Positions 18,240 to 18,673 of a stretch of DNA of 64,000 bases are shown in pieces. The DNA comes from Flavobacteriales bacterium (GTDB lineage Bacteria > Bacteroidota > Bacteroidia > Flavobacteriales_G > Salibacteraceae): contig JABJJW010000024.1 in NCBI GenBank assembly GCA_018660685.1, positions 1 through 64,000 of the forward strand, read 5' to 3'. Numbering within the stretch: position 1 is the first letter of the stretch; every line of letters starts with the position of its first letter. Made by a program: the position numbers and the translations under genes. The notes beneath the pieces are model-generated. The model saw nothing but the letters and a program-made list of their open reading frames with translations. It made no database searches and was not told the DNA's origin.

Positions 18240-18267
18240 CGGGGTGTAGCGTAGCCCGGTTATCGCG
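18240..18267 (+). repeat. Direct repeat, copy 1 (tRNA-Pro 5' end)
   Basis: 28-bp perfect direct repeat of 18574-18601. The two copies bracket the GIY-YIG pseudogene and a short leader, as if the element had entered a tRNA gene and left a partial duplicate of it. Confidence 0.9.
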
Positions 18268-18284
18268 TCCCGCCTTAGGCGGGA
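18268..18284 (+). repeat. 17-nt perfect palindrome at the anticodon-arm position
   Basis: TCCCGCC-TTA-GGCGGGA forms a seven-pair stem with a three-base loop. Read as a tRNA arm it would be TCCCG/CGGGA around a seven-base loop CCTTAGG. Its G+C content is high compared with its surroundings. It may be a dispersed repeat of this genome; one window cannot show that. Confidence 0.7.
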
Positions 18285-18312
18285 AGGTCGCATTCCTAAA
18301 ATCGCTGGTGAT

Positions 18313-18549
18313 ATGAAAGTGTACATATTGTACAGTAGTTCTTTGAATAGACATTATGTCGGTCACAGTCAGGATATGACTGATCGTTTAAGCAGGCATA
18401 ATGCAGGAAGAAGTAAGGCAACGAAAAACGGGATTCCTTAGGATGTTGTTTGGAGTTGTGAATGTCCTTCTAGATCGGAAGCCATGAAATTGGAATTGAA
18501 GATCAAAGGTCGAGGGATAAAGCGATTTCTTGATGACTTGTCGGAATGA
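18313..18549 (+). pseudogene. GIY-YIG nuclease family gene with an in-frame stop
   Basis: A 78-codon frame from ATG 18313 encodes a small single-domain GIY-YIG (UvrC-like) nuclease. VYILYSS (residues 3-9) and YVG (15-17) are the two signature strands, R25 in DRLSRHN and E56 in SRSEAMKLE are at the positions of the catalytic arginine and glutamate, and the KIKGRGIKRFL end is typical. Codon 43 (18439-18441) is TAG inside GIP-stop-DVVW; relatives usually carry Trp here (GIPW), so a single TGG to TAG change would explain it. The rest of the frame is intact, so the damage is recent, or the codon is read through. It lies between a damaged and an intact tRNA-Pro. Confidence 0.85.
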
Positions 18550-18573
18550 GCCCTTCTTTATTATAATACACCT

Positions 18574-18648
18574 CGGGGTGTAGCGTAGCCCGGTTATCGC
18601 GCCTGCTTTGGGAGCAGGAGGTCGCAGGTTCGAATCCTGCCACCCCGA
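18574..18648 (+). tRNA. tRNA-Pro (anticodon TGG)
   Basis: Full cloverleaf: acceptor CGGGGTG (18574-18580) pairs with CACCCCG (18641-18647), anticodon stem CCTGC/GCAGG around loop TTTGGGA with anticodon TGG at 18609-18611, and T arm GCAGG-TTCGAAT-CCTGC. The discriminator is A18648 and CCA is not encoded. The first 28 bases are repeated at 18240. Confidence 0.97.
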
Positions 18649-18650
18649 CG

Positions 18651-18673
18651 AAAGGCCTCTTTGAGGCCTTTTT
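18651..18673 (+). terminator. Hairpin between tRNA-Pro and tRNA-Arg, possible terminator
   Basis: AAAGGCCTC (18651-18659) pairs with GAGGCCTTT (18663-18671) around a TTT loop and is followed by a short T run (about five T in all). It could terminate transcription or serve as an RNA-processing signal between the two tRNAs. Confidence 0.6.

Follow-up and report, generated by a model that had tools for sequence, protein, structure and literature searches.

A decayed 334-bp unit at a Flavobacteriales tRNA-Pro gene and a probable family of tiny selfish GIY-YIG elements with hairpin-swapped tRNA segments

The window analyzed here, a 64,000-nt stretch of a Flavobacteriales (Salibacteraceae) genome, contains a tRNA-Pro gene that lies at a constant offset of 334 bp from a damaged copy of itself (Table 1). 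The copy has neither a T arm nor the 3′ strand of the acceptor stem, and a perfect palindrome occupies the position at which the intact gene has its 17-nt anticodon arm, CCTGCTTTGGGAGCAGG (18602–18618). A leader hairpin and a poly-T run upstream of the copy match the context in which relatives carry their single tRNA-Pro. Between the two lies a GIY-YIG reading frame that starts 20 nt past the damaged copy and ends 24 nt short of the intact gene, with one strand used throughout. At this locus ARAGORN and Rfam call just the intact tRNA-Pro and the tRNA-Arg that follows it; the damaged copy is not called. The first-pass annotation had described the copy as 28 tRNA bases, a 17-nt palindrome and eight further bases at a 334-bp offset, and this description is exact base for base. 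The palindrome is not a product of chance (no match in 100 shuffles, with up to two mismatches allowed), and it occurs once in the window's genome.

Table 1. Features of the tRNA-Pro locus (window coordinates)
Feature	Position	Strand	Evidence or remark
5′ fragment of tRNA-Pro, nt 1–28	18240..18267	+	28/28 identical to 18574–18601
Hairpin/palindrome TCCCGCCTTAGGCGGGA replacing the anticodon arm	18268..18284	+	Perfect; 8-bp arms, 1-nt center, 17 nt
Eight tRNA-Pro bases (aggtcgca) after the hairpin	18285..18292	+	Match 18619–18626; tRNA similarity stops there
GIY-YIG nuclease gene, 78 codons, pseudogene (TAG at 18439–18441)	18313..18549	+	PF01541, E = 2.2e-14
Intact tRNA-Pro(TGG)	18574..18649	+	ARAGORN; Rfam RF00005, 69.2 bits
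Terminator-like hairpin past tRNA-Pro	18651..18671	+	9-bp arms, then a T-rich run
Inserted unit, 334 bp (damaged copy, GIY-YIG gene and spacer)	18240..18573	+	Absent at 9/10 same-genus sites

The GIY-YIG frame is the sole frame of the 334-bp unit. Its assignment, already made in the first-pass annotation, stands on the PF01541 match, which was searched with X at the stop codon, but the gene itself is broken: an in-frame TAG takes the place of codon 43, where relatives have an invariant tryptophan, and the window's copy is therefore a pseudogene. Broken nuclease genes are also found at several other family members. The catalytic Tyr, Arg and Glu residues (Y15, R25 and E61) are invariant across 23 relatives. 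The only other GIY-YIG matches in the window's genome come from two large frames, 476 and 641 codons long. The best PDB sequence matches of the protein are 1zg2, 1ywl and SLX1, and the folds nearest to its AF2 model (76 aa) are UPF0213, SLX1 and I-TevI. I-TevI has a separate DNA-binding domain for long-site specificity, whereas the model here consists of the GIY-YIG fold alone, with no known DNA-binding domain. Open frames in the family are mostly 80–120 aa. As modeled, the family protein amounts to hardly more than the catalytic domain and offers no recognized DNA-binding domain that could account for tRNA specificity.

To locate the orthologous site in ten genomes of the same genus, we used the upstream lipoprotein-like gene. 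Nine of the ten have a single tRNA-Pro at the site, with no nuclease and no insert, and at most of these empty sites the gene is preceded by the leader and T-rich context seen before the window's damaged copy. Because nine sites are empty and most of them share this leader context, the window has most likely gained the 334 bp, and the damaged copy would then occupy the ancestral tRNA position. The tenth genome, G024, has several damaged tRNA-Pro and tRNA-Arg copies that bear hairpins (locus L188, about 670–1380, contig strand) and no GIY-YIG gene at the locus. These are probably non-autonomous or left-over copies, which indicates that hairpin copies can be present, or be retained, where the gene is missing. 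G024 is the one relative with GIY-less hairpin copies; tRNA fragments without GIY-YIG genes are not the rule among relatives.

No second tRNA-Pro was found in the window's assembly, and restoration of the tRNA upon insertion would therefore be essential. As a control, the 31 other tRNAs of the genome gave no hairpin copies and five short fragments. Short fragments of tRNA ends, 13–17 nt long, near tRNA-Ser, tRNA-Arg and tRNA-Leu (L363, L366 and L369) may be fossils of such elements.

Relatives of the nuclease are present in 25 of 42 genomes of the order, and family members in 156 of 247 Bacteroidota genomes. We surveyed 167 related GIY-YIG loci; the survey totals run about 5% high because some places are counted more than once (L014/L032/L060, L230/L246, L238/L276, L239/L251, L013/L061, L031/L062 and L006/L226). 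An intact tRNA gene lies within 600 bp of the nuclease at 146 of the 167 loci (median distance 53.5 bp), on the same strand in every one of the 146, upstream in 105 loci and downstream in 41. Fifteen tRNA isotypes are represented. Damaged tRNA copies, 228 in total, accompany 130 of the 146. A hairpin, defined as perfect with an arm of at least 6 and a loop of at most 5, is found no more than 24 nt from where the tRNA match stops in 159 of the 228 copies, versus 17 (maximum 25) in random stretches of the same loci; 167 copies hold a hairpin, versus 23 in dinucleotide shuffles, and about 30% have no clear one. Bystander tRNAs within the surveyed loci show fragments in 3 of 13 cases, 13 being few for a control. 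The small insertion of a GIY-YIG gene and a partial tRNA copy at tRNA-Pro that the first-pass annotation had proposed is thus borne out by the empty sites in the genus and by an architecture that recurs throughout the phylum.

The same anatomy is present in other phyla, in genomes reached through the palindrome scan: Sungiibacteriota (L321), Kaiserbacteria (L342), Methylomirabilota (L322 and L343) and Endomicrobiales (L332). At a Nitrospiraceae locus (L324, ~1370–1447 oriented), a damaged tRNA-Asn copy has hairpins in place of two arms, the anticodon arm and the T arm. Two GIY-YIG relatives lie away from tRNAs (L027 and L028), flanked by dispersed repeats of the CTGAGC..GTCGAAG type, and their arrangement suggests another partnership between a GIY-YIG protein and a repeat.

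Hairpin placement is typical for each kind of tRNA: (i) the anticodon arm or part of it is replaced in Pro, Val, Gly and Lys; (ii) its 3′ half is replaced in Met and one Asp group; (iii) the T arm is replaced in another Asp group and in Leu and (iv) the hairpin is in the D loop in Arg. Outer stems are conserved within and across tRNA kinds, mostly as TCCCG..CGGGA or TCCGYC..GRCGGA (e.g. TCCGCC..GGCGGA), with TGGCGC..GCGCCA in some Pro hairpins, and their sequence is not derived from the tRNA. The tips vary in both sequence and length while the outer stems stay constant. Per-isotype hairpin tables covered Asp, Met and Gly, and the Pro hairpins were read separately. Across the family, 8–17 tRNA bases are swapped for hairpins of mostly 14–19 nt. 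The size-neutral exchange emphasized at first therefore holds for Pro, where 17-for-17 replacement is seen, but it is not general.

Hairpins homologous to TCCCGCCTTAGGCGGGA are found at the same place in L007, L009, L212, L230, L261 and L269, and CCTGCCTGCCGGCAGGCAGG or near-identical hairpins are found in tRNA-Arg and tRNA-Leu copies at L044, L229 and L310; we take the CCTGCCTGCCGGCAGGCAGG palindrome to be dispersed in other genomes as well. Other genomes contain TCCCGCCTNAGGCGGGA in at least 117 stretches, for the most part distant from tRNAs, and only 4 of 83 inspected sites lie inside damaged tRNA copies. On one Flavobacteriaceae contig (L068, at 1637 and 6666), the same palindrome lies ~250 bp past two tRNA-Val genes in similar context, with no GIY-YIG gene. 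The worry that the palindrome is a common dispersed repeat unrelated to tRNA genes does not hold as stated: its sequence does occur off-tRNA elsewhere, but it is unique in this genome, and in the family the class of hairpin and its position recur. The marker of the family is thus hairpin structure and place, rather than palindrome sequence. Of the two roles suggested for the palindrome in the first-pass annotation, a remnant of the cut site does not account for outer stems that are common to unrelated tRNAs or for arms that stay complementary, whereas the data are consistent with replacement of the cut site as a putative protection.

A tree of 136 nuclease proteins (70 alignment columns, with many forks open) speaks to clustering, not to exact history, and it clusters by tRNA isotype: 40 label changes are needed versus 98 after shuffling, and none of 200 shuffles was as low. 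The window's protein falls in a group of 17 tRNA-Pro neighbors and one tRNA-Ser neighbor. Some loci are tandem arrays in which two to six units, mostly of 290–470 bp and often 90–100% identical, follow one another. Relatives with an intact nuclease include those at L007, in a tRNA-Pro array at L246 and in a tRNA-Met array at L298. In 31 of 35 distinct multi-unit loci, an intact tRNA is found at the end of the array and none between units; of the other four, L046 and L048, along with part of L259, contain unrelated nuclease genes and are not true arrays. The arrays multiply damaged tRNA copies, not intact tRNAs.

Our preferred reading, to which we assign a probability of roughly 60%, is that the window's unit belongs, in decayed form, to a widespread family of tiny (~0.3–0.45 kb) selfish, homing-like elements, each made of a small GIY-YIG gene and a tRNA segment with one arm swapped for a hairpin. 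The anatomy suggests the following route. The nuclease would cut an intact tRNA gene within or close to the arm that the damaged copy lacks. Repair of this break from an element-bearing template would draw its homology from the damaged copy at one flank and from the intact tRNA at the other. This would leave a damaged copy, the nuclease gene and a tRNA gene made whole again. The hairpin-swapped copy would escape cutting and the restored tRNA would stay a target, so that repeated rounds could stack units in tandem behind one intact tRNA. The mirror-image forms, with the intact tRNA upstream or downstream of the nuclease, would be expected from repair off either side of one cut.

Several points weigh against a homing-like model. 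A nuclease that cuts the intact arm should leave the neighboring intact tRNA vulnerable. Unequal crossing-over after one insertion could also produce the arrays. Any sequence change would give simple immunity, for which a hairpin is not needed, and the model does not account for the choice of a hairpin. The copies that have no clear hairpin, the broken gene in the window and the bare catalytic domain also count against it.

Two rivals to our reading are live on the question of why a hairpin is present. The first, which we regard as possible though unlikely, is that the enzyme works at the hairpin, which an SLX1-like, structure-specific GIY-YIG protein would recognize in extruded or single-stranded form and from which it would move or excise the unit. 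REP hairpins serve RAYT transposases in a parallel manner. A conserved stem with a variable tip would be odd for a double-stranded site bound by a dimer, SLX1 is among the nearest solved relatives, and the isotype-typical placement of the hairpin is as such a role would have it. Similarity to SLX1 is, however, common to much of the superfamily, and neither strand asymmetry nor a cut site is visible in the sequence.

The second, improbable in our judgment, is that mutation rather than selection makes the palindromes, with template switching during replication (quasipalindrome correction) perfecting inverted repeats in tRNA-derived DNA to leave a functionless hairpin. Two hairpins at L020 differ symmetrically (AAGCTT/AAATTT), as correction of this kind would produce. 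Imperfect hairpins have no bias of G.T over A.C mismatches (26 versus 21), and with no G.U preference on the tRNA strand nothing points to selection for an RNA hairpin. Correction leaves the origin of the stem sequence unaccounted for, however, and it fits poorly with outer stems that are non-tRNA, common to different isotypes and constant while the tips vary.

A further interpretation is that these elements constitute a distinct minimal class of mobile element, in which a stand-alone GIY-YIG domain would take its tRNA-gene specificity from the element's own hairpin-swapped tRNA mimic (through DNA structure, or through a marking or guiding nucleic acid) and not from a DNA-binding domain, with clades parasitizing different isotypes in several bacterial phyla. 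We consider this doubtful.

A benefit to the host is very unlikely. Here the transcribed hairpin-swapped tRNA half would act as a regulator or decoy at the RNA level, or else the arrays would supply tRNA dosage against tRNA-cutting defenses or toxins, in parallel with SegB of phage T6. That precedent speaks for it, as does the shared strand of nuclease and tRNA at all 146 loci, which makes co-transcription probable. The arrays amplify damaged copies instead of intact tRNAs, however, the RNA-wobble signature is absent, and the elements are patchy within the genus with several nuclease genes broken. Finally, the chance arrival of an independent dispersed palindrome in a tRNA duplicate that was decaying next to an unrelated gene is hardly credible, since for all the off-tRNA occurrences of TCCCGCCTNAGGCGGGA, recurrence across the phylum survey refutes chance as a general account and the window's palindrome is unique in its genome.

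Three known types of element were considered for the window's unit and rejected. A group I intron in a tRNA gene does not apply, as the tRNA-Pro is intact and separate and the Rfam scan gave no intron family; a RAYT/REP or IS200/IS605 element does not apply, as the encoded protein is GIY-YIG and not a Y1/HUH transposase; and an integrase-type tRNA island does not apply, as the 334-bp unit has no tyrosine or serine integrase. More broadly, REP/RAYT and IS200/IS605 systems resemble the family in tying short conserved hairpins to a small nuclease or transposase, but they do not share its GIY-YIG enzyme, its tRNA-gene target or the location of its hairpin inside a tRNA copy. Islands and phages that use tyrosine integrases likewise insert into tRNA genes and restore the tRNA, whereas the present elements are sub-kilobase, have no integrase and combine a hairpin swap with half-tRNA duplications that may be 5′ or 3′. 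UPF0213/SLX1-like small GIY-YIG proteins share the fold and give the best PDB sequence matches, but they have been solved as free-standing proteins or as SLX1–SLX4 subunits and are not known as tRNA-linked arrays.

The closest known system appears to be SegB, a free-standing GIY-YIG homing endonuclease of phages T4 and T6 that lies among tRNA genes and is reported to cut tRNA-containing DNA (PMC13096335; PMC2988022). In phage T6, SegB is described as driving tandem amplification of a tRNA–nuclease segment by recombination (PMC13096335). By analogy, it offers a precedent for a GIY-YIG nuclease at tRNA genes that drives tandem amplification, and the likeness extends to both the tRNA-gene neighborhood and the arrays. 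Unlike the phage-borne SegB, these elements are chromosomal, measure ~0.3–0.45 kb per unit, occur at 15 isotypes and form arrays of damaged copies; the parts of the SegB reports available to us mention no hairpin-swapped tRNA copies. Like free-standing GIY-YIG homing elements, the family has conserved catalytic Tyr, Arg and Glu residues and is present or absent at the same site in close relatives. We would place it among free-standing homing-type elements, with the hairpin swap and the bare nuclease leaving room for something more distinct.

We found no published description of such elements in the open literature, a coverage that takes in neither preprints nor most subscription journals, and they are apparently a widespread, undescribed kind of tiny selfish element. 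If our reading is correct, they would be among the smallest autonomous selfish elements of bacteria, hidden at tRNA genes and possibly annotated merely as generic GIY-YIG nucleases next to overlooked tRNA fragments. They would account for the scatter of broken tRNA copies that carry hairpins and would provide a natural panel of nucleases seemingly specialized by tRNA isotype. They would also pose two questions: (i) why a tRNA arm is replaced by a hairpin and (ii) how a nearly bare catalytic domain finds one tRNA gene among some forty.
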